NCBI RefSeq assembly: GCF_035621455.1
Contig: NZ_CP141822.1
Coordinates: 930,001 to 994,000, forward strand
Reading direction: 5' to 3'
From: Vibrio natriegens NBRC 15636 = ATCC 14048 = DSM 759
Lineage (GTDB): Bacteria; Pseudomonadota; Gammaproteobacteria; Enterobacterales; Vibrionaceae
DNA length: 64,000 nucleotides
The notes below the pieces were generated by a model. It did not search any database, was not told the DNA's origin, and saw only the letters and a list, made by a program, of their open reading frames with translations. Positions 40,773 through 63,839 of this stretch are shown one piece after another. Within the stretch, counting starts at the first letter, position 1; each line of letters opens with the position of its first letter. The position numbers and the translations under genes were made by a program.

Positions 40773-40857
<85 letters not shown>

Positions 40858-40943
40858 AGGGTGTTTTATACTTAAAAGATGATTTCCCAACACATCGTTC
40901 AAGTTGTTCTAACGTTTAAAAGGAATAAACGTCAGAAAAAATA

Positions 40944-41028
<85 letters not shown>

Positions 41029-41114
41029 AGGGTATTTTTATACTTAAAAGATGATTTCCCAACACATCGTTCAAGTTTGTCTAATGTTTAAAAGGAATAA
41101 ACACCAGAAGAATA

Positions 41115-41199
<85 letters not shown>

Positions 41200-41285
41200 A
41201 GGGTGTTTTTATACTTAAAAGATGATTTCCCAACACATCGTTCAAGTTGTTCTAATGTTTAAAAGGAATAAACATCAGAAGAATA

Positions 41286-41370
<85 letters not shown>

Positions 41371-41456
41371 AGGGTGTTTTATACTTAAAAGATGATTTCC
41401 CAACACATCGTTCAAGTTGTTCTAACGTTTAAAAGGAATAAACATCAGAAGAAATA

Positions 41457-41541
<85 letters not shown>

Positions 41542-51442: not shown

Positions 51443-51548
51443 GGGGCTCTGGTCCTCTCGCAACAATAGCTCGTGAACTCGGTCAGGTCCGGAAGGAAGC
51501 AGCCGCAGCGTGTGACTTGTGTGCCGGGATGTGGCTGGGGTCCCACCC
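51443..51548 (+). ncRNA. ffs: 4.5S/SRP RNA (ffs), attachment site of the CAST
   Basis: About 106 nt. It has the highly conserved SRP loop core GTCAGGTCCGGAAGGAAGCAGC, described here as 51482-51503, with the apical GGAA tetraloop and the asymmetric AGCAG side. The 5' GGGGCTC and 3' GGTCCCACCC ends pair. It binds Ffh to form the bacterial signal recognition particle. The gene is intact. The transposon begins directly downstream, and the segment from 51485 is matched by the second CRISPR spacer of the element. Confidence 0.93.
51485..51504 (+). other. Protospacer in ffs matched by the home guide
   Basis: Twenty positions align with the second spacer (63757-63776), with mismatches only at 6, 12, 15 and 18. 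Positions 6, 12 and 18 are those flipped out of the guide-target duplex in type I effectors. The bases 5' of it are TC, not the preferred CC, in keeping with the relaxed PAM use of I-F3 systems. Identity past position 20 drops to chance level. Confidence 0.8.
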
Positions 51549-51551
51549 ATT

Positions 51552-51592
51552 GTGAAGCCTGCAATATATGTTCGCATAAATTGCAGGCTTTC
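51552..51592 (+). terminator. Terminator-like hairpin after ffs, at the element boundary
   Basis: Sixteen-base arms, beginning AAGCCTGCAAT and ending ATTGCAGGCTT, pair with one mismatch around a stable TTCG loop. A short T-rich tract follows. It would end the ffs transcript. It lies exactly where guided insertion should occur, so part of it may be transposon end sequence. Confidence 0.7.
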
Positions 51593-51622
51593 TTCATATT
51601 TGCACCATAAGTCTTCATAGTC
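51571..51622 (+). repeat. Candidate TnsB-binding repeats at the ffs-proximal end
   Basis: Three TTC(G)CATA-type motifs have CATA at 51575, 51595 and 51616, steps of 20 and 21 bp. Tn7-like ends carry several TnsB sites of about 20 bp in the 90-110 bp before tnsA, which fits. The motif is short and the assignment is inferred. Confidence 0.45.
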
Positions 51623-51628
51623 TATTTT

Positions 51629-51648
51629 TTTGTTGTAGGTTTACAACA
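51629..51648. promoter_or_regulatory. Palindrome upstream of tnsA
   Basis: An 8-bp inverted repeat TTGTTGTA/TACAACAA around a 4-nt centre ends 15 bp before tnsA. It differs from the ACTTAG palindromes used elsewhere in the element. It could be an operator for tnsABC or part of the transposon end. Confidence 0.45.
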
Positions 51649-51662
51649 ACAGTGATTTTGCT

Positions 51663-52286
51663 ATGTTCGACCAAACCAAGAAGTCATCTCACGTACACAA
51701 CATCTGTAAGTTCATGAGCTTGAAGAATGATGCTGTTGTTCGAACGCTCTCTATTTTAGAGTTCGACTTTTGTTTCCATCTCGAATATAACCCCGACGTA
51801 GAAAAATACCTTTCTCAACCACATGGTTATCATTACCAGTTCAACAATCGTAAATGTCGTTACACTCCTGATTTTTTAGTCTTTGATCGCCAAGAACGTT
51901 CTTCATTTATTGAGATCAAGCATTCTAGCCAAATTCTGAAACCTGACTTTAGAGCAAGGTTTGCGGAAAAACAGCGTGTTGCACGAGAAGAGCATGATAA
52001 ACGTCTAATTTTAATCACCGAGAAACAAATCAGAATCAACCCAATATTCAATAATCTGAAGCTCTTGCATCGATACTCAGGTCTTCATTCGGTGACCAAA
52101 GTACAAAAAAGCGTATTAGGTTATATTCAACGTAAGCAAAGAGTAAAACTGTATGAAGTGTCTGAATACCTTGGGTTATCTGAGCATGAAACATTAACAT
52201 CGGCACTTTGCTGGCTGTCATCGGGTAAGGTTAAGACGGATTTTAAAAGTGCTGATTTTAGCTTAAATAGTTATGTTTGGTGCTAA
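51663..52286 (+). CDS. tnsA: TnsA endonuclease of the Tn7-like transposase
   Basis: A 207-residue endonuclease. The restriction-enzyme-like catalytic residues are visible as E33 in LEFDF, D70 in YTPDF and E84/K86 in FIEIK. The C-terminal part (about 130-205) is the winged-helix region that contacts TnsC. TnsA cuts the 5' ends of the element so that, with TnsB, it moves by cut-and-paste. It is the first gene from the ffs-proximal end, and its stop overlaps the tnsB start by one base. Confidence 0.93.
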   Translation: MFDQTKKSSHVHNICKFMSLKNDAVVRTLSILEFDFCFHLEYNPDVEKYLSQPHGYHYQFNNRKCRYTPDFLVFDRQERSSFIEIKHSSQILKPDFRARFAEKQRVAREEHDKRLILITEKQIRINPIFNNLKLLHRYSGLHSVTKVQKSVLGYIQRKQRVKLYEVSEYLGLSEHETLTSALCWLSSGKVKTDFKSADFSLNSYVWC

Positions 52287-54166
52287 TGGTGGCATCAGAA
52301 CTTGATAACTTTGTCGGCTTTTTTGATGAAGTGGAAGCTTCAAGATCAGAAGCTCAAATGGAGTCACAAATTCCCGTTGAGTTATTTCAAAGTGATACTG
52401 ACCGCTCATCTTCATTTGATTCTCTTCCTGAAAAAACACAAAAAGAAGTACTTCGTCGTCTCAAAATTATTCAGTTTGTAGAAGTCCGTCTTAAAGGTGG
52501 ATGGACAGAAAAGAACCTCGACCCAATATTAAATATGGTCGAAAATGCTTTAGAACTACCTCGTCCAAGCTGGCGAACTCTCGCTAGTTGGAAAAAAGAC
52601 TATTATGAGTCGGGAAAAAAGTGGCTCTCTTTAATCCCGAAGCATACCCAAAAGGGGAATCGAACTGCTCATACAGATTCCCAATTCCTTATTGATGAAG
52701 CAATTGAAAGAAAGTATCTGACGAGAGAGCGTTTAAGTGTCGCTGAAACATACAGGTACTATAAAAGCCGTGTGATAAAGACCAATCAAACGATTGTAGA
52801 AGGAAAAATAGACCTGATTAGCCAGCGGGCCTTTTATGATCGGGTGAATAGTTTACCTGCTTATGATGTAGCAGTGGCAAGGTATGGTAAGCGCTATGCT
52901 GATAGGGCATTTCGCTCTGTAGGTCAGCAAATCCCTGCGACTAAGCCCATGGAGTACGTAGAAATAGACCATACTCCGGTGCCAGTTATATTGATCGATG
53001 ATGAGTTAGACGTGCCATTAGGGCGTCCTTACTTAACAATGCTCTACGACAGGTTTAGCAAGTGTATTGTAGGTTTGAGTGTTAATTTCCGAGAACCTAG
53101 TTTTGATTCTGTTCGAAAAGCTTTGCTTAACGCTCTTTTAAATAAAAATTGGGTTAAGGACAAGTATCCGTCAGTTAAGAATGATTGGCCTTGCTGTGGG
53201 AAAATTGATTACTTGGTGGTTGATAATGGAGCGGAGTTTTGGAGTAATAGCTTGGAAGACTCGCTGAAACCCCTAGTGTCAGACATTCAGTACAGTCAAG
53301 CCGCTAAGCCATGGCGAAAATCGGGTATAGAGAAACTTTTTGATCAGCTTAATAAAGGTTTGACTAATTCTTTACCTGGAAAAACATTTACAAATCCAAC
53401 CCAATTAGAAGATTACGACCCTAAAAAAGAGTCGGTTGTTCGAGTATCTGTATTTTTGGAACTACTACATAAGTGGGTAATCGACTATTACCATATGTCT
53501 CCTGACGCACGAGAACGTGATGTCCCATACCACAAGTGGCATGAATCGAAGTGGCGTCCTAATACTTATGAAGGTGAGGAGAAATCTAGGTTAAAAATAG
53601 AGCTTGGGTTACTCCGGCACCGAACAATAGGGCTTGCAGGTATTAGATTGCATAACTTACGTTATCAATCAGACGAGCTAATCGAGTATCGGAAATATTG
53701 CTCTGTAAAATATGAAAGGAAGTTGTTTGTAAAAACAAAAACAGACCCCTCTGATATCAGTTCCATTTATGTCTACCTTGAGTTTGAAAATCGCTACATT
53801 AGAGTCCCTGCAGTTGATAATAGCGGTTATACACAAGGACTTTCTCTGTTTGAACATGAACGAATCCAACGAGTTCGCCGTCTAAACACGAAGCGTATGG
53901 TTGATGAAGAAGCGCTAGCTGATACCTATCTCTATATGGAAAGCAGGATTGAAGCAGAGACCGAACGACTGCGTAATTATGGGAATAAGAAGCGGTCGCA
54001 ACCCAAGATTGGAAACACATCAAAATTGGCGAAGTTTAGGGATGTTGGAACTACAGGGCCAAGCTCCATTATTACTAAGTCAGTTAACGAACCTTTAACC
54101 AATTCATACGATGAGAGCGTTATCGATTTAGATGACGAGGATTTTGATGAAATTGAGGGGTATTGA
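52286..54166 (+). CDS. tnsB: TnsB DDE transposase
   Basis: A 626-residue transposase. The DDE triad is D228 (EIDHTPV), D313 (LVVDNGAEFW) and E349 (KSGIEKLFDQL). N-terminal helix-turn-helix regions (about 40-200) bind the element ends. A C-terminal acidic tail (SVIDLDDEDFDEIEGY) is the probable TnsC-contact hook. ATG 52286 is chosen over the in-frame TTG 52277 because it overlaps the tnsA stop. TnsB cuts and joins the 3' ends. Confidence 0.94.
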   Translation: MVASELDNFVGFFDEVEASRSEAQMESQIPVELFQSDTDRSSSFDSLPEKTQKEVLRRLKIIQFVEVRLKGGWTEKNLDPILNMVENALELPRPSWRTLASWKKDYYESGKKWLSLIPKHTQKGNRTAHTDSQFLIDEAIERKYLTRERLSVAETYRYYKSRVIKTNQTIVEGKIDLISQRAFYDRVNSLPAYDVAVARYGKRYADRAFRSVGQQIPATKPMEYVEIDHTPVPVILIDDELDVPLGRPYLTMLYDRFSKCIVGLSVNFREPSFDSVRKALLNALLNKNWVKDKYPSVKNDWPCCGKIDYLVVDNGAEFWSNSLEDSLKPLVSDIQYSQAAKPWRKSGIEKLFDQLNKGLTNSLPGKTFTNPTQLEDYDPKKESVVRVSVFLELLHKWVIDYYHMSPDARERDVPYHKWHESKWRPNTYEGEEKSRLKIELGLLRHRTIGLAGIRLHNLRYQSDELIEYRKYCSVKYERKLFVKTKTDPSDISSIYVYLEFENRYIRVPAVDNSGYTQGLSLFEHERIQRVRRLNTKRMVDEEALADTYLYMESRIEAETERLRNYGNKKRSQPKIGNTSKLAKFRDVGTTGPSSIITKSVNEPLTNSYDESVIDLDDEDFDEIEGY

Positions 54167-54168
54167 TA

Positions 54169-55236
54169 GTGAATATTACTCCAGATCAAAGGGCACAATT
54201 AGCTGCTTATGAGAACTGTTTTATTGAGTATCCCGAAATCACTGAGATCTACTCAATCTTTGACCAGCTTCGTTTTAATCAATCATTAGGTGGAGAGCCG
54301 GAGTCGTTTCTCCTTACGGGCGAAGCTGGAAGTGGTAAGACAGCGTTGATCGATAATTATCTTAGTCGTTTTGAAGTCAGTGCGAATAGTTGGTCTCAGC
54401 AAACCATACTGAGCACTCGAATTCCTAGCCGAGTAAATGAGCAAAATACGTTGACTCAGTTCTTGGTCGATTTAGATGTAAAATCCGGTGGAAGAGGTGT
54501 ACGGCGGCGCAATGAAATTGCTTTAGCGGAAGCGGTTGTGGCGCAACTAAAGCGTAAATTGGTAGAGCTTATAATTGTTAACGAAGTGCAAGAGCTGGTC
54601 GAGTTTTCAACGGCTCAAGAAAGGCAAGTTATTGCCAATACATTTAAATATATAAGTGAAGAGGCAAGGGTTTCGTTTGTGTTAGTCGGTATGCCTTATG
54701 CGAGTGTATTAGCACAAGAGCCGCAATGGGATTCACGATTGAGTTGGAGAAGAAATCTCAACTATTTTAAGCTGTTCAAGAGTAAAGTCGATGAAAGAAA
54801 TACCGCTCAATCATATGAAATCGATGTCGCCCAAAAGAAACATTTTGCTAAATTTGTCGCTGGGTTAGCATCTAGAATGGGATATGACAACCCTCCGAAG
54901 CTTACTAATAATGACATCCTATATCCGTTGTTTGTAATGTGCCGAGGCGAGTGCCGGAGACTGAAACACTTTCTGTCAGATGCAATGATTATGAGCTTTA
55001 AAGACAGTACAGATACGATTGACAAAGAAACTTTGTCTCGTACTTTTGCCTTTAAGTTTCCGCACATGGCGAACCCTTTTATTTGCTCTCTTAGTGAGAT
55101 CAAACTGAGCCAAATTGATACCAATTCATTTTACAACACAAAAGCTATTTCAATAGAAGATAGGATCTTAGCTCCACGTTTTACAGACGATTTCCCCTTA
55201 AGTATGTTGTTAAGCAAAGGAGGTATGAAGGTTTAG
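54169..55236 (+). CDS. tnsC: TnsC AAA+ targeting ATPase
   Basis: A 355-residue AAA+ ATPase. Walker A is GEAGSGKT (51-58). The Walker B strand reads LIIVNEVQEL, with Asn138 where Asp is usual, followed by the catalytic Glu139. Sensor region VSFVLVGMPYASVL is typical. TnsC filaments link the TniQ-Cascade target complex to TnsA-TnsB. The GTG start follows GAGGGG. The gene overlaps the convergent xre by 4 bp. Confidence 0.92.
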   Translation: MNITPDQRAQLAAYENCFIEYPEITEIYSIFDQLRFNQSLGGEPESFLLTGEAGSGKTALIDNYLSRFEVSANSWSQQTILSTRIPSRVNEQNTLTQFLVDLDVKSGGRGVRRRNEIALAEAVVAQLKRKLVELIIVNEVQELVEFSTAQERQVIANTFKYISEEARVSFVLVGMPYASVLAQEPQWDSRLSWRRNLNYFKLFKSKVDERNTAQSYEIDVAQKKHFAKFVAGLASRMGYDNPPKLTNNDILYPLFVMCRGECRRLKHFLSDAMIMSFKDSTDTIDKETLSRTFAFKFPHMANPFICSLSEIKLSQIDTNSFYNTKAISIEDRILAPRFTDDFPLSMLLSKGGMKV

Positions 55237-55538
55237 TCTCGAACTAAAGACGCAAGCAGGGCCGCCTTATCTTCATCACTCATCTTTTCAATTACACACG
55301 CAAGCTCCGCACTCAACTCATTTTCACAAAAGAAATAGTTGAGTGGTACATCTAACTCTTCAGCCATACGACGTAGAGTACCGATATCCGGCACATGTCT
55401 TCCTTTTTCGTAGTGGTTCATTCGACCACTAGCAGAACTCGGCTCCATACCAATTTTCACCCCTAGATCTTTTTGGGTGATCTTGGCTTTTTTACGTGCA
55501 GCTTTGAGCCTCTCTGGGATTGGGTTGTGGTTTTGCAC
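55233..55538 (-). CDS. Xre-family repressor of the CAST
   Basis: A 101-residue protein starting at GTG. The helix-turn-helix is LKAARKKAKITQKDLGVKIGM with YEKGRHVPDIGTLRRMAEEL, and a short C-terminal helical part (SDEDKAALLASLV) follows. I-F3 elements commonly encode an Xre regulator that controls the transposition and guide genes. Two ACTTAG-N5-CTAAGT palindromes lie in its own promoter region and a third before tniQ, so it likely regulates itself and the targeting operon. Confidence 0.88.
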   Translation of the reverse strand: MQNHNPIPERLKAARKKAKITQKDLGVKIGMEPSSASGRMNHYEKGRHVPDIGTLRRMAEELDVPLNYFFCENELSAELACVIEKMSDEDKAALLASLVRD

Positions 55539-56266: not shown

Positions 56267-56934
56267 AAGCACTCATACGGGCAAGTAACATGGTTGCGAT
56301 TTACAGCATGATTTTGTGTACTGTGAAGAAGTGAAAGTGCAGTGGATGTTGAAGAACAGGCAGTTTTTAAAGGTGTCTTTTATTTTGATAACTGAAATAA
56401 AAGGTTGTTTACTTTCAGTCTTTACACTTAATTTGTGATGTTACTCATATTAATTTCCATCAAGGATTGACTCAAATATTTCATGTAAGATCAAGGAAAA
56501 TATTTTTCCGTGCGGTTATTTATAAGCCGATCTCAATACTTGTGATTTTACTTATTCAAGTCTGCCCTTTCCTCATCGGTTAGTATTTACTCACTGATTT
56601 TTTTCTTTTGAGTAGTTATCCACAAGTCATCCTAGAACTGTAACTTGATCAAAAAGATCAATAGCACTATCTTGAACGGGCTTACAACCGAAACACAATA
56701 TATAGTATTCTGGTTGTGAGTAACTTTATACACAATGGAGGGAATGTTGATTGATAAGATTTAAGTAAAAACCCCTAAGCCAAGCTAAGGCTTAGATTAG
56801 GGGAAAGAGTATAAAATAGGTTTAGGAGTAAACTAATTAGTATACGACTTTTTTGAGCGGTCTTAGAAGAGTATACATAGTTAGGCACCTCCGCAACCTG
56901 AGAATTTTTACAGTGTGACACAGGAAATAGAGAT
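56267..56934. other. 668-bp AT-rich non-coding stretch in the cargo
   Basis: No gene is seen. It holds an 8-bp-stem AT hairpin near 56378-56402, one TTATCCACA box (56616-56624), a TTGATC-N5-GATCAA palindrome (56646-56662) and a hairpin at 56770-56801. The last 110 bp, with a GTATAC repeat pair, leads into the small repeat-protein gene. It may be degraded cargo or a long leader. Confidence 0.5.
56770..56801 (-). terminator. Hairpin with minus-strand T-run
   Basis: CCCC and GGGG outer arms, with CTAAGCC/GGCTTAG inside. On the minus strand the hairpin is followed by GTTTTTAC, so it could terminate leftward transcription. Confidence 0.5.
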
Positions 56935-57730: not shown

Positions 57731-58426
57731 ATGTCAAGATGCACAGCACCAGTGAGAGGACACAGTTCAGCAGCAGCGGCTGCAAACTGTCCTGCATGCC
57801 GTTATAAAAGTCGTGGATATAGTAACTATAGCGGCTACAGCTCACCCTATCCATCGTATAGCAGTACGAGTAGCTACCCAAGAAACAGTGGTAGCGCTTC
57901 CAGAAGTTCAAGACCTCGTTGGTCTAAACCTAGCTCGACTGTATCGTATACTTCATCTCAAATTCTATCACTTACACCAATAAGGGAAGCCGTTGAAGTT
58001 CGAGCCGCCGCGCAGCCGGATCTTCGTGATGCATTTTTATGTCATGCATGGGCAGATCGTAAAGAGTCAGCCAAAGAACTGCATGATTTACTTGAAACCG
58101 CAGGTGTTAAAGTTTGGTTTAGTGAGAAAGATTTAGGACTAGGTGTACCAATGATGCGCGCCATTGATAAAGGTTTAGCAAATTCCAAAGTTGGGCTTGT
58201 GTTGGTTACCCCTGCAATGTTGGAGCGTCTACCGAAAGAGAGTGTTGCTGATAAAGAGCTTTCAGCTCTATTAGCAGGTAATCAACTCATCCCTATTGTA
58301 CACAATACGACATATGAAGCTCTTCGCAATGTAAGTCCTTTACTTGCATCTAGGTCAGGCTTGGACACTTCAGAAGACACAATGGCTGAAATTGCTGAAA
58401 AGATCGCAGAGTTAGTTGATATTTAG
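57731..58426 (+). CDS. TIR-domain protein with Cys/His N-terminus (putative defence effector)
   Basis: A 231-residue protein. The N-terminus has a possible zinc site (C4, H11, CPAC at 20-23). A Ser/Tyr-rich disordered linker covers about 28-82. The TIR domain (about 98-228) has DAFLCHAWADR, VKVWFSEKDLGLGVPMMRAIDKGL and SKVGLVLVTPAML, with a glutamate in VADKELSALL at the usual NAD-hydrolase position. Bacterial TIR proteins often deplete NAD during phage infection. It has its own ribosome site and terminator. Confidence 0.82.
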   Translation: MSRCTAPVRGHSSAAAAANCPACRYKSRGYSNYSGYSSPYPSYSSTSSYPRNSGSASRSSRPRWSKPSSTVSYTSSQILSLTPIREAVEVRAAAQPDLRDAFLCHAWADRKESAKELHDLLETAGVKVWFSEKDLGLGVPMMRAIDKGLANSKVGLVLVTPAMLERLPKESVADKELSALLAGNQLIPIVHNTTYEALRNVSPLLASRSGLDTSEDTMAEIAEKIAELVDI

Positions 58427-58565: not shown

Positions 58566-59777
58566 GTGAACTCAAATATCCAATTATACCGAGACGAATC
58601 ACTCGAAAGCTTTTTGTTGCGGCTATCACAAGAGCAAGGCTACGAACGATTCGCTCACTTCGCGGAAGAACTTTGGTATCAAACACTTGATGATAGTTCA
58701 GGATTGTTAGGTGCGTTCCCACTAGAGCTCAATCGAGTCAACGTTTACCACGCACAAACGACAAGCCAAATGCGGGTGCGCGTTTTCATTTACCTTGAAA
58801 ATCAGCTAAAGCTCAGTAATTTTGGTGTGCTTCGCCTTACACTCACTCATTCTAAATCTCAATTCTCTCCTGATTTCAAAGCAGTACATCGTTTGGGTGT
58901 TGATTACCCCTATGCTTTTCTTCGTAAACGTTTCACGCCAGTTTGTCCTTCTTGTCTATCTGAAGCCTCGTATATTCGCCAGCATTGGCACTTGATACCT
59001 CATCAAGTTTGCGAGAAGCATGGTTGCGAGCTCATTCATCGATGCCCTGAGTGTTACGCTTTACTTGAGTACCAGTCAATCGAGAGTATTACTCAGTGCG
59101 AATGTGGTTTTCACTTGCCAGAAGCATTGCCTAAGCCAGCGTCAAAATCTGCTCAAATAGTTGCTCGTTGGCTGACAGGGGACCATTTAGACGTGGTTGG
59201 GCCCATGGGCAAAGCGATGAGCATTTCAGAGCGTTATGGCTTGTTGCTTTGGTATGTGAATCGCTACGGTAGATTGGAAGACTTTAGTCTTGATGAGTTT
59301 GTGCAATATTGCGCAATATGGCCCAAAAGACTGCATCAAGACTTGGATATGCTCGCCAAAAAAGCAGAATTGGTTCGAATCAAGGAATGGAAACAGACGT
59401 TTTTCTCTGAAATATTTGGAACATTATTGAAAGAGTGTCGTTATCTCCCAAGTCGCCAGTTGAGTAAGAATATTGTACTTGCCGAATTGCTACGTTATTT
59501 CAATCGGCTAGTTGCTGATCATCCTTCATCAGTAAAAGGAAACATCGCAGATATTCTATTGAGCCCACTAGAAGCTTCGACGTTACTTTCGTGCACGACG
59601 GATGAAATCTACCGTTTGTATGAATACGGAGAAATCAAAGCGGCCGTTCGACCCCAAATGCACGTAAAAATTGCCAGTCATGAATCAGTATTCACCTTGA
59701 GAAGTGTCGTTGAGACTAAGTTAGCGAGAATGTGCTCAGAAAACGATGGTTTAAGTGTTTATCTTCCGGAGTGGTGA
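58566..59777 (+). CDS. tniQ: TniQ, transposition targeting protein bound to Cascade
   Basis: A 403-residue TniQ/TnsD-family protein. A cysteine/histidine zinc region lies near 125-185 (CPSCLSEASYIRQHWHLIPH, CEKHGCELIHRCPECY, CECGFHL), with helical domains after it. In I-F3 systems a TniQ dimer sits on Cas7-Cas6 and recruits TnsC. GTG 58566 is the start; the ribosome site is weak and lies close to the operator. First gene of the tniQ-cas operon. Confidence 0.9.
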   Translation: MNSNIQLYRDESLESFLLRLSQEQGYERFAHFAEELWYQTLDDSSGLLGAFPLELNRVNVYHAQTTSQMRVRVFIYLENQLKLSNFGVLRLTLTHSKSQFSPDFKAVHRLGVDYPYAFLRKRFTPVCPSCLSEASYIRQHWHLIPHQVCEKHGCELIHRCPECYALLEYQSIESITQCECGFHLPEALPKPASKSAQIVARWLTGDHLDVVGPMGKAMSISERYGLLLWYVNRYGRLEDFSLDEFVQYCAIWPKRLHQDLDMLAKKAELVRIKEWKQTFFSEIFGTLLKECRYLPSRQLSKNIVLAELLRYFNRLVADHPSSVKGNIADILLSPLEASTLLSCTTDEIYRLYEYGEIKAAVRPQMHVKIASHESVFTLRSVVETKLARMCSENDGLSVYLPEW

Positions 59778-59779
59778 AA

Positions 59780-61876
59780 ATGATAAAACTCGGCGATGTA
59801 TTAGCAATAGAAAAAGACGAGGTAAAGCAGGCGACTTTGAAAAAGGTTTTCATGCCTTACTCGCAAAACATTGACATCGATGGCCATGAAAGAGAGGCGT
59901 TAACGGTATTAATTAATTTGAGTTCACACCACAAAGGGTCTAAGTGCACCGATTGGCTTGATATTGATAGAGCGAAAAGCTATCTGTCTCAGGAAGCCAA
60001 CGTAGACTTATCACTCGCGGAGATAAAATGGTTTCATACCCATAATTTGAAGTATCCAGATTGCCGTGTAAGCGCACAGCGAATTATTGCTGAACCTCTT
60101 CCGGCAGAGGGTGCCTTTATTTCAAGTTCTGGGTTACCGCCGAGTTTAGGCTGGGCGCATAATGCAGCTTCTTATAGACACACCATTTGGTTACTGAGTT
60201 CTTTTTGTTGGCAGTCGCGAACCGTCAGTATTGTTTCATTAATTCAGCAGCAAAATCCGGTTTGGCTAGACTTGCTACAAGAATTTGGGCTGAGTGTTAA
60301 ATCACTTAATCTTATTAGCGAAGAAATAGAATTACAGCTTTCATCGACAACATTTCCAACTGAAGTAAACACCTACTCTAAACAGTTACGATTCCCTTGG
60401 AATGGTGACTACTTATCGGTTACTCCTGTCGTTAGCCATGCAATGCAAAGTGAGTTAGAGCATCGTCAGCGATCTGAAGATAGTCATCTGAAGTTTGTGA
60501 CTATGTTGTTACCCAACTCAGCGAGCATTGGTAATTTGTGTGGCAGTGTAGGCGGTTATATGAAAGTGCTGAATTATCCATTGGATATCAGCCCTAAAGT
60601 GAACAGAGCATCATCTGAGCAGACATTGGGCGCTAGTAGGCAAAGGAATGGTCGGTATTTTGATGATTACCAAATTACGAACATTAGAATTTGTGAAATC
60701 CTAAATCGGTTGGTTGGGGCGGAGCCACTTAAAACACACAAACAAAGAGTGAAGGCGCGAAAAGACCAAAGCAAGATATTAAGAAAGCAGATAGCTTTGT
60801 GGATGCTGCCCTTAATTGAATTACGTGATCGTATGGTGAATGATGAGCGAGAGCGAACCATGCATGGTGATCAGTTGATTCACGATTTTTTGTTTTTACC
60901 TGAACGTGAATTGTCTTCGCTGGCAACATCACTTAATCAAAAATTACATTTGGTAATGCAAGGCAATAAGTTTACTCGAAAATTTGCTTATCACCCTAGG
61001 CTGATGCAACTGATAAAGGCTCAGATTGTTTGGATTCTAGATGTGCTGAGTAAGCCTCAACAACAAGAGGGCGGTTGTGGTGCAGAGGAACAGTATATCT
61101 ATCTGTCTTCACTACGGGTACAAGATGCGCTCGCAGTAAGTAGCCCTTATTTATGTGGCGTCCCCTCATTGACCGCAATTTGGGGGTTTGTTCACCAATA
61201 TCAACGAGACTTTAATACGCTGACTAACGGCGACGCATTTTATGATTTCACGGGGTTTGCATTTTATGTACGTAGCCAAAACATTATTGCTACCGCCAAG
61301 TTGACTGAGCCCTGCTCGTTAGCGAAAGCGAGAACCCTTTCAAATGCAAAACGTTCCACAATTCGGGGCGATAGGCTGGCTGATTTAGAGATTGATTTAG
61401 TCATTCGTGTCCAAAGTAGAGGCCGGTTATCAGATTGTTCTTCAGAACTTAAAAATGCACTGCCAGTATCGTTTGCTGGAGGTTCTGTGTTTCAACCTCG
61501 TATTTCTTCCAAAATTGACTGGTTAAGAACTTTCTGTAGCCGTTCTAGTTTGCTTCATATTTTGAAAGGTTTACCTGCCTATGGAAGCTGGTTGTACCCA
61601 AGTGAGAGGCAACCAGAAAGCTTTGATGAACTTGAATTGATGTTATTAGAGAATGAAAACTACCTTCCAGTTTCTAATGGCTATCACCTGTTGGAAGTGC
61701 CTACGCAGCGAAAGAACTCCCTTACTGATCTGCACGCTTATGTCGAAAATACCTTAAGCGTCGCGAACCAGGTGAACCCAATAGAAATGCGTTTTTCTGG
61801 AAGAGCTCCCTTTTTTGAGCAGGCTTTTTGGTCGCTAGAATGCAGTCCTACAACTATCCTTATTAAAAAATTATAG
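59780..61876 (+). CDS. cas8/5: Cas8f-Cas5f fusion (type I-F3 large subunit)
   Basis: A 698-residue protein, the natural Cas8-Cas5 fusion that distinguishes I-F3 transposon systems from ordinary I-F. It starts at ATG 59780, 2 bp after tniQ; a longer frame from 59732 would overlap tniQ. The subunit recognises the PAM and holds the 5' handle of the guide. Identification rests on length, position between tniQ and cas7, and the middle-region residues FPWNGDYLSVTPVVSH and RFDDY-like segment GRYFDDYQITN. Confidence 0.85.
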   Translation: MIKLGDVLAIEKDEVKQATLKKVFMPYSQNIDIDGHEREALTVLINLSSHHKGSKCTDWLDIDRAKSYLSQEANVDLSLAEIKWFHTHNLKYPDCRVSAQRIIAEPLPAEGAFISSSGLPPSLGWAHNAASYRHTIWLLSSFCWQSRTVSIVSLIQQQNPVWLDLLQEFGLSVKSLNLISEEIELQLSSTTFPTEVNTYSKQLRFPWNGDYLSVTPVVSHAMQSELEHRQRSEDSHLKFVTMLLPNSASIGNLCGSVGGYMKVLNYPLDISPKVNRASSEQTLGASRQRNGRYFDDYQITNIRICEILNRLVGAEPLKTHKQRVKARKDQSKILRKQIALWMLPLIELRDRMVNDERERTMHGDQLIHDFLFLPERELSSLATSLNQKLHLVMQGNKFTRKFAYHPRLMQLIKAQIVWILDVLSKPQQQEGGCGAEEQYIYLSSLRVQDALAVSSPYLCGVPSLTAIWGFVHQYQRDFNTLTNGDAFYDFTGFAFYVRSQNIIATAKLTEPCSLAKARTLSNAKRSTIRGDRLADLEIDLVIRVQSRGRLSDCSSELKNALPVSFAGGSVFQPRISSKIDWLRTFCSRSSLLHILKGLPAYGSWLYPSERQPESFDELELMLLENENYLPVSNGYHLLEVPTQRKNSLTDLHAYVENTLSVANQVNPIEMRFSGRAPFFEQAFWSLECSPTTILIKKL

Positions 61877-61889
61877 GAATGAGTTGCTT

Positions 61890-62927
61890 ATGGAACTGTG
61901 TAGCCAACTGAATTATGTCAGGTCTCTTTCTGCGGGTAAGGCGTGTTTTTACTATCTAACGCCAAGTGGCGATATGTGTCCTTTGTCTATCGACAAAACT
62001 CGTTTGAGGGCCCCAAAGGGAGGTTATTCAGAGGCGTATAGAGGGAGTCAGTTCCATCAAAAGAATGTAGCGCCTCAAGACCTGGCCTATGCAAATCCTC
62101 AGTTTATCGAGGAGTGCTATGTTCCCCCAAGTACTGATGAAATAGTCTGTGAGTTTTCGCTTCGTGTTAAAGCTAACTCGTTGCACCCTGAAGTTTGCAA
62201 TGATGATTCGGTTCGTGAACAACTCGCTTTACTTGCCGCTACTTATAAAGATCTAAACGGTTACCAAGAGCTTGCCTATCGATATGCAAAAAATATTTTA
62301 TTGGGTACTTGGTTATGGCGAAATAGAGAGTGCCGCGGTGTTGCTATTGAAGTGACAACAAGTGATGGCGAAATTATTCTCATCAGCGATGCTACAAGGC
62401 TATCTTGGTATGGTCATTGGGATGAACAATCGACTGAGAGCTTAGAAAGGTTAACAAGTTATTTGTCTAGGGCATTGTCTGATAGTGCACAATATTTCTA
62501 TATGGATGTGAAGGCCTTACTGGCTGTGGGGCGGGGAGATGAAGTGCACCCTAGTCAGGAGTTCTTAGATGATAAACAAGAAGGTGTCCCGACCAAACAA
62601 TTAGCTAAAGTTCGACTAGCCGATGGCCGAGAAACTGCCGCCTTTCATGCTCAGAAAATTGGTGCAGCTTTGCAGTCGATTGACGATTGGTGGCATGAAA
62701 AAGCAGATAAACCGTTAAGAGTTAATGAATATGGGGCTGACCGAGAATATGTCATTGCCAGGCGTCATACTCAATCAGGGAACGATTTCTATCAGTTGAT
62801 TCGTCGTACCGAAGCATGGACAGAGGAAATGGAGAAATCGAAAAGTATACCTAATGATGTTCATTTTATTATGTCGGTACTCATTAAGGGTGGGTTGTTT
62901 AATAGTTCTAAGAGTACTGCTAAGTGA
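61890..62927 (+). CDS. cas7: Cas7f backbone subunit
   Basis: A 345-residue Cas7f (Csy3) protein. Marks are RSLSAGKACFYYLTPSGD, the LRVKANSLHPEVCND segment, YRYAKNILLGTWLWRNRE and the late REYVIARRHTQSGNDFYQLI. Six copies normally coat a 32-nt spacer, one per 6 nt. ATG 61890 is preferred; TTG 61884 is in frame. Seven bases separate it from cas6. Confidence 0.92.
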   Translation: MELCSQLNYVRSLSAGKACFYYLTPSGDMCPLSIDKTRLRAPKGGYSEAYRGSQFHQKNVAPQDLAYANPQFIEECYVPPSTDEIVCEFSLRVKANSLHPEVCNDDSVREQLALLAATYKDLNGYQELAYRYAKNILLGTWLWRNRECRGVAIEVTTSDGEIILISDATRLSWYGHWDEQSTESLERLTSYLSRALSDSAQYFYMDVKALLAVGRGDEVHPSQEFLDDKQEGVPTKQLAKVRLADGRETAAFHAQKIGAALQSIDDWWHEKADKPLRVNEYGADREYVIARRHTQSGNDFYQLIRRTEAWTEEMEKSKSIPNDVHFIMSVLIKGGLFNSSKSTAK

Positions 62928-62934
62928 GGTACGC

Positions 62935-63564
62935 ATGATAAGTAAACGATACTACTTCTCGATACGTTACGTTCCTCTACATGCAGACTTCGGATTATTG
63001 GCGGGTCGCTGTATCCAACAAATGCATATGTTTATTGTTAATAACCCTCTGGCGAAGAACAAAGTGGGAGTTTGTTTTCCTCGCTGGAATGCGACGAATA
63101 TTGGGGACACTATTGCATTTGTTATGGATGATAAAGAGGTGCTGTTAGGACTCTCTTTTCAGTCTTATTTTTCAATGATGGTGAAAGAGGGGGGATTTGA
63201 ACTATCGAGAGTGTGTGAGGTTCCGGTAAATACTCCTGAAGTACGGTTTGTGCGTAATCAGATTGTCGGAAAGAGTTTTATCGCGTCTAAACAACGACGG
63301 ATGAAACGTAGCATGTTGAGAGCGGACTTGTCTGCTACAGAACACACCCCAATCGCTAAAGAAGAGCGAGTAGTGGATCATTTTCACCGAGTTCCAATTT
63401 CAAGTGCTTCATCAGGTCAGGAATACCTATTACATATTCAAAAAGAGTTTGTTGAATCAAGAGAACAGGCTAATTTCAATAGTTACGGACTCGCAACGAA
63501 TCAAGAGAAAAGAGGGACAGTCCCAGACCTTAGTATTTACCCCTTTTTTGAAGAATCAATGTAA
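62935..63564 (+). CDS. cas6: Cas6f guide-processing endoribonuclease
   Basis: A 209-residue Cas6f (Csy4). The first strand is YYFSIRYVP, a histidine (H31) lies in the first helix where the catalytic His of Csy4 sits, and KVGVCFPRW follows. The Arg-rich helix (KQRRMKRSMLRADL) binds the repeat stem. It ends with the typical SYGLAT and FF tail. It cuts each repeat after its stem-loop. ATG 62935 has a GTGAGGT site; last cas gene, 104 bp before the array. Confidence 0.9.
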   Translation: MISKRYYFSIRYVPLHADFGLLAGRCIQQMHMFIVNNPLAKNKVGVCFPRWNATNIGDTIAFVMDDKEVLLGLSFQSYFSMMVKEGGFELSRVCEVPVNTPEVRFVRNQIVGKSFIASKQRRMKRSMLRADLSATEHTPIAKEERVVDHFHRVPISSASSGQEYLLHIQKEFVESREQANFNSYGLATNQEKRGTVPDLSIYPFFEESM

Positions 63565-63668: not shown

Positions 63669-63802
63669 GGTATCTGCCGCATAGGCAGTCAAGAAAAGGC
63701 TAAGTTTCTTATGTTGCTCAATTTCTTTGTGATCTGCCGCATAGGCAGCTAAGAATAGGTCTGGAAGAAAACAACCTACCTGCTGAACAAGCAGTTTTTA
63801 TT
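63669..63802 (+). CRISPR. Minimal I-F3 CRISPR array: two repeats, two spacers and a diverged third repeat
   Basis: Repeat 1 (63669-63696) and repeat 2 (63729-63756) are 28 nt with the I-F stem CTGCC-GCATA-GGCAG. They differ at the 5' edge (GGTAT versus GTGAT) and in the 3' handle (TCAAGAAA versus CTAAGAAT). Spacer 1 (63697-63728) is 32 nt. Spacer 2 starts at 63757 and matches ffs. A third, diverged repeat is seen at about 63775-63802, with stem CTGCT-GAACA-AGCAG at 63780-63794. No copy lies at the 60-nt register, 63789. Confidence 0.88.
63757..63776 (+). other. Home-site guide (spacer 2) matching ffs
   Basis: AGGTCTGGAAGAAAACAACC aligns to ffs 51485-51504 with 16 of 20 identities. Mismatches are at 6, 12, 15 and 18. 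The following bases do not match and lead into the stem of the diverged repeat. Effective guide length is therefore 18-20 nt instead of 32. The guide would direct insertion just downstream of ffs, where this element sits. Confidence 0.82.
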
Positions 63803-63839
63803 AAACCCACTAAGTAAATACTTGGTGGGTTTGTTTTTT
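63803..63839 (+). terminator. Terminator of the cas-CRISPR transcript
   Basis: A 14-bp stem AAACCCACTAAGTA/TACTTGGTGGGTTT with one G-T pair runs into TTTTTT. It starts directly after the diverged third repeat. Confidence 0.88.

Follow-up and report, generated by a model that had tools for sequence, protein, structure and literature searches.

The Vibrio natriegens window (the whole stretch of 64,000 nucleotides analysed here) carries a CRISPR-associated transposon (CAST) beside ffs, and this element is probably a type I-F3b-like CAST that homes with a short guide. In this best explanation, the last spacer of its array is the attachment-site guide and reads about 20 nt instead of 32, the Cascade that carries it would hold four Cas7 subunits, and insertion takes place about 49 bp past the guide end, related elements with a short guide lying about 12 bp nearer to the target.

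The element and its home site

The element spans positions 51553 to 74699 (window numbering), extends beyond the window end and is flanked by the 5-bp target site duplication CATTG, one copy of which lies at 51548–51552 (+ strand) and the other outside the window at 74700–74704. Its right end begins TGAAGCCTGC (51553–51640, +, inner limit approximate), 68 bp from the PAM edge, and an identical right end is given for V. parahaemolyticus UCM-V493 (PMC6360697). A TGT at 51569, at a canonical-looking distance, was considered as the right end and ruled out by the right-end comparison and the target duplication, which place the end at 51553; the reading of a canonical distance was therefore reversed. 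The gene set of a type I-F3 CAST is complete within the element, all on the + strand: tnsA (51663–52286; PF08722), tnsB (52286–54166, start picked within the ORF 52277–54166; PF09299), tnsC (54163–55236; PF05621, TniB), tniQ (58566–59777; PF06527), cas8/5 with a Csy2-like stretch (59780–61876; PF09614), cas7 (Csy3; 61890–62927; PF09615, top solved-structure match 7u5d) and cas6 (Csy4; 62935–63564; PF09618). A gene for an Xre-type regulator lies on the opposite strand (55233–55538, −; PF01381). No match to the Cas3 nuclease model TIGR02562 was found in genome G000 at E 0.001, and the Cas genes present are of the Csy2, Csy3 and Csy4 types, with no Cas12k effector as in type V-K. Two further proteins are cargo, a TIR-domain protein (57731–58426, +), whose TIR region resembles a retron-associated TIR family too, though with a score far under the family cut-off, and, just beyond the window between array and left end, a 1213-aa protein with a YobI-like P-loop NTPase domain (L003, 69–3710).

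The array consists of two repeats and one atypical terminal repeat, all read on the + strand. Repeat 1 (63669–63696) and repeat 2 (63729–63756) enclose a typical 32-nt spacer (63697–63728) defined by the 60-nt repeat spacing, 26 bases of which had no exact match in the viral contigs. Behind repeat 2 lies the short ffs homing guide (63757–63776), and then the atypical terminal repeat (63775–63802, 28 nt in register), whose hairpin CTGCT-GAACA-AGCAG occupies 63780–63794. A terminator-like inverted repeat with a T-run follows at 63805–63830 (+), and a similar hairpin and T-run stand after the terminal repeat in relatives.

The home site is the 4.5S SRP RNA gene ffs (51447–51543, +; Rfam RF00169, 71.6 bits), which holds a TC PAM (51483–51484, +) abutting the protospacer (51485–51504, +). 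Alignment of the guide AGGTCTGGAAGAAAACAACC (63757–63776) with ffs AGGTCCGGAAGGAAGCAGCC (51485–51504) reproduced the match described in the initial annotation, with 16 of 20 identities and mismatches at positions 6, 12, 15 and 18. On its own the match carries modest weight: among 2000 shuffled guides, 154 had a match of at least 16/20 on one or the other strand of the window, and the guide itself has another 16/20 site at 56403 (−; mismatches 2, 4, 8 and 12). We accepted it as real because of the comparison across Vibrio relatives, not because of the single match. The annotation had also read the spacer as a home-site guide that stands in for TnsD; the element indeed adjoins ffs with CATTG at both sides, and att-guides replacing TnsD are established for I-F3 CASTs (PMC11406308). 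Homing of I-F3b elements to ffs by an RNA guide, with a TC PAM and atypical repeats, is already known (PMC11406308, PMC12774636), ffs or rsmJ being the I-F3b home sites (PMC11406308) and TC the usual PAM at ffs (PMC12774636). The 5-bp duplication at the ends is as in I-F3 CASTs, and the ffs home site and the array spacer with an atypical repeat are as in I-F3b. The 32-nt homing guide and insertion at about 81 bp from the PAM that are usual for I-F3, perhaps not strictly, are replaced here by a hairpin offset of 23 and an insertion at 68 bp. Among the RNA genes of the window, five tandem tRNA-Tyr genes (40773–41541, −; anticodon GTA) were also seen, 171 bp apart and with equal Rfam scores.

A better full-length match to a phage or plasmid had been named in the initial annotation as grounds for giving up ffs as the target. 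With positions 6, 12 and 18 left open, the guide matched three viral contigs with two distinct sequences, and one of them (L225), with 19/20 identity and TC in front, resembles the guide more closely over 20 nt than ffs does. This match ends at 20 nt, and the search leaves the assignment to ffs standing; by our estimate, a viral collection of that size should yield a handful of matches of this kind by chance, and L225 would not explain an insertion beside ffs.

The short guide and its terminal hairpin in relatives

For comparison, 227 Vibrio genomes were searched, TniQ was matched at E ≤ 1e-15 in 61 of them, and array regions were taken from the 51 genomes with TniQ at least 55% identical. An ffs guide passed the filter in 41 of the 51 array regions. 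The filter missed four more (G051, G118, G096, G033); in the remaining regions another gene was targeted (G189, G021, G115), the region was cut at contig ends (G204, G135) or no array was found (G222). Right-end regions were examined in 53 cases, 45 with ffs and 8 without, and guide and own ffs were both read in 36 genomes, giving 36 guide/ffs pairs. Two order-level genomes (G255, G324) were set aside, as no homing guide could be read in them. As I-F3a controls, 10 array/right-end pairs were taken, 8 of which had arrays; only one spacer (G119) reached 20/32 against the right-end flank, which was taken as chance, and the controls were left unused. TniQ matches were fragmented or contained stops in G097, G033 and G146, the elements of which may be inactive with their guides kept, and the array of G115 is identical to that of a Vibrio penaeicida plasmid record.

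Neither the shortness of the guide nor the Cas6-type hairpin at its end had been mentioned in the initial annotation. In the window element this hairpin begins 23 nt after the guide start, compared with about 37 usually, and 46 nt after the repeat-2 hairpin, compared with 60. The offset is 23 nt in 36 of the 41 filtered guides and 24–25 in the other five; in G008, G071 and G028, a 4-nt loop places the hairpin at offset 24. Offsets in the further guides are also 23–25, a range that applies to the ffs guides read from one large clade, and CTGCT-GAACA-AGCAG is nearly unchanged across most Vibrio guides. The same layout was found at the Neiella, Aliivibrio and Photobacterium aquae loci (offsets 23–25), the Aliivibrio terminal hairpin being less regular in that its best 5-bp stem requires a 6-nt loop. 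On a Cas6 tree rooted on Aeromonas S44 (the root being a choice, and several branches being long), the short guides clustered in a single group of 58 rows with good support (SH-aLRT 96). This group also contains two elements with 32-nt guides to another gene (G021, G115) and two rows without an assigned guide length, and two changes between long and short guides are required on the tree. In Photobacterium aquae (L046, 11969–12090), a 32-nt spacer between atypical repeats precedes the short ffs guide, possibly making two homing guides.

An alternative is that the terminal hairpin is nothing more than a transcription terminator and that it fixes where the guide RNA ends without any cut by Cas6. 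The TTTTT directly after it in the window element speaks for this. In relatives, however, it is followed by TTAATAAT, by TAGATAAT or, as in G015, by the normal repeat tail CTAAGAAT, and a separate hairpin with a T-run lies downstream. The terminal stem also follows the repeat stem: where the repeat stem is CCGCC/GGCGG (G005, G102, G051, G096, G118), the second pair of the terminal hairpin is C-G in 5/5, and among 39 guides with U-A at this pair in the repeat it is U-A in 36, the other 3 being read in a shifted frame. We regard a terminator alone as the least probable of the alternatives considered, and a short guide would result from it all the same.

Pairing with the target differed strongly by position. 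Among the 36 Vibrio guide/ffs pairs, positions 12 and 18 were mismatched in all 36 and position 6 in 35; the other mismatches lay at positions 3 (3 pairs), 4 (6), 7 (1), 13 (11), 15 (2) and 20 (1). Of the four mismatches first described, those at 6, 12 and 18 therefore recur, while the one at 15 is not part of the pattern and was seen only here and in G131. The concentration of substitutions at 6, 12 and 18 that the annotation had proposed to look for was found: over 56 ffs guides on the Cas6 tree, 20 of 46 changes fell on these positions, against 6.9 expected (binomial P about 3e-6 at an expectation of 3/20, a rough test, as many tree forks are weak). Guide position 4 had 12 changes and tends to agree with the host ffs (T/T in 19 pairs, C/C in 11, C/T in 3, T/C in 1, G on one side in two), being discordant in 4 of 34 T-or-C pairs (Fisher p about 1e-5, uncorrected for relatedness). 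From these position-wise counts, the paired guide bases either stay fixed or go along with the host, and the flipped-out bases vary with more freedom, which supports the initial annotation. Its wording of drift at silent positions fits in part: change is freer there, but A predominates at the flipped-out bases (in 46 of the 56 guides at position 6 and in 49 each at 12 and 18), a prevalence that could be selected rather than the result of drift. The flipped-out bases equalled the host ffs only once across the 36 pairs (position 6). A strict avoidance of the matching base was also considered and was not established, given the exceptions in Photobacterium aquae (G at 18, as read from the guide alone), G391 (equal to its ffs at 6 and 18) and G285 (equal at 18).

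Insertion distance and guide length

The distance from the PAM edge to the right end was 68–72 bp for short guides (mean 68.8, n = 45, mostly one clade and hence not independent) and 79–83 bp for guides of 31–33 nt (mean 81.3, n = 9, comprising seven homing guides and two plasmid-targeting spacers, hairpin offsets of 36 and 38 included). Guide and right end lay on separate draft contigs in 3 of the 45 short cases (G215, G146, G096) and 3 of the 9 long ones (G285, G523, G392), and for G523, which has two spacers for the same target, the better one was used. The table leaves out G042, G165, G086, G071 and G028, where a guide was read without a usable ffs/right-end pair (G042 sits at ffs, the start of which reads N in the stored sequence), and G125, G222, G204, G135 and G174, where a right end at ffs was read with no guide. 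The shift in insertion site with guide length was also seen with the target gene held constant, for two genes: long guides at ffs gave 83 bp (G285) and 79 bp (G391), and at an AraC-family gene (Pfam) a 32-nt guide gave 83 bp (G021) compared with 69 bp for a short one (G189). This AraC-family regulator gene is an alternative home site reached with two guide lengths (L157 in G189, L154 in G021).

The shift was also seen with one type of right end. A plasmid copy in Vibrio sp. THAF190c belongs to the short-guide clade and has a short ffs guide and the TGAAGCC right end of the window element's type; it lies 79 bp from the PAM edge of the target of a 32-nt spacer, with the duplication on both sides, compared with a mean of 68.1 (n = 30) for short-guide elements with a TGAAGCC-type right end. 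The spacer matches beside this insertion at 23/32 with PAM CC. Its mismatches (L185, 36–67) fall at 3, 6, 9, 12, 15, 21 and 30–32, for the most part with the 3-nt period of codon drift, and the element sits at the guided place despite them. Both distance classes agree with published geometry. PseCAST inserts 49 nt past its target (PMC13228271) and VchCAST about 82 bp from the PAM (PMC13345079), and in I-F1 Cascade the spacer length is L = 6N − 4 for N Cas7 (PMC7296934), so that 20 nt would correspond to four Cas7. The arithmetic then predicts 20 + 49 = 69 bp for four Cas7 and 32 + 49 = 81 bp for six, which fits both classes.

These distances weigh on two other readings of the window guide. It could be a normal 32-nt guide with 12 mismatched PAM-distal bases and an incidental internal hairpin, and the array register would permit this, with an end at 63788. 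Against it, bases 21–32 depart from ffs, a hairpin is kept at these bases in the relatives read, a 32-nt guide should place the insertion at about 81 bp whereas it lies at 68, and mismatch at positions 25–29 abolishes transposition by VpCAST (PMC12774636); we consider this reading very unlikely. Equally improbable is a guide that has decayed into a relic, with the element having reached its place in some other way. The terminal repeat of the window element has indeed TTTTTATT in place of the normal repeat's CTAAGAAT, but the layout is conserved across a deep clade, guide position 4 tracks the host ffs (with the reservation on relatedness given above) and insertion distance follows guide length. 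A functional short guide remains the preferred explanation. As a separate observation, TniQ in seven genomes (G062, G030, G079, G114, G189, G021, G115) is about 66–70% identical to that of the window element and TnsB 36–39%, and the right end, where read, is of a different type (TGTCG/TGTTG); it seems that these elements swapped their transposase part and retained the guide part.

Proposed mechanism and related systems

In the mechanism that we propose, Cas6 would cut repeat 2 and also the atypical terminal repeat, releasing a 46-nt crRNA with an 8-nt 5' handle, a guide of about 20 nt, a short linker and the hairpin. On this short crRNA a reduced Cascade would form, its Cas7 subunits numbering four and not six. 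This complex would pair with the conserved ffs core and ignore the flipped-out bases 6, 12 and 18, and TniQ, TnsC and TnsAB would then place the element some 49 bp past the end of the short guide, at the 3' edge of ffs. Among 45 Vibrio ffs sequences, the protospacer varied at 4 of positions 1–20, compared with 8 of positions 21–32. The 32-nt spacers of the same array would direct the same Cas proteins to plasmids. The main difficulty is that VpCAST requires pairing at guide positions 25–29 (PMC12774636), positions that a 20-nt guide does not have; the small complex would have to apply this checkpoint nearer the PAM. VchCAST spacers shortened in 6-nt steps are described as having 'little or no effect' on transposition (PMC10188703), an ambiguous wording that we read as little or no activity and that counts against the short guide.

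We lean slightly towards a reading in which one Cas set forms two Cascades, one with four Cas7 for homing and one with six Cas7 and 32-nt crRNAs for plasmids, guide length separating the pathways. If so, homing would be confined to the conserved core of the 4.5S RNA, insertion would be shifted to where the gene ends 3', and the chromosomal guide would be useless to Cas3-bearing I-F1 systems. Guide length would thereby explain in a simple way why the two target pathways of a single element do not mix.

One of the closest known systems is the element on plasmid pS44-1 of Aeromonas salmonicida S44, which we take to be Tn6900 (AsCAST), type I-F3b, at ffs. Its gene types and their order agree with those of the window element, and its last guide starts at the same ffs base, with mismatches at 4, 6, 12, 15 and 18 within its first 20 positions against the common Vibrio ffs (not the Aeromonas ffs). 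It differs in that its ffs guide is 32 nt long and its terminal repeat stands in normal register. Type V-K CASTs differ in using a Cas12k effector, which has no Cas7 backbone whose number sets the complex size. Their homing crRNA is likewise truncated relative to others, and the excerpted treatment of I-F3 in the same source does not mention truncation there (PMC11406308). Vibrio Tn7-like elements at the SRP-RNA gene share the location and, through V. parahaemolyticus UCM-V493, the right end, and the excerpts describing them mention neither a guide nor its length (PMC6360697). I-F1 Cascade with engineered short spacers, where 20 nt is expected to hold four Cas7, still binds its target (PMC7296934); it differs in being engineered and part of an immune system.

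A literature search, whose partial coverage did not extend to the key 2020 paper, returned no report of natural short I-F3 homing guides with shifted insertion, and their novelty is provisional. The figures for guide length and insertion distance of I-F CASTs in the published excerpts were obtained for elements whose guides measure 32 nt. With a natural clade homing on about 20 nt, its insertion moving with guide length, a ruler model can be put to the test, and guides shorter than 32 nt may well be functional. Because truncated I-F1 complexes bind their target and do not trigger Cas2/3 (PMC7296934), cells that carry I-F1 systems may also tolerate a short guide safely. Co-occurrence with I-F1 Cas3, taken as a gauge of such guide privacy, weighs neither for nor against it: the Cas3 cut-off was passed by 22 of the 227 Vibrio genomes, three of them with short-guide elements (G051, G071, G097).
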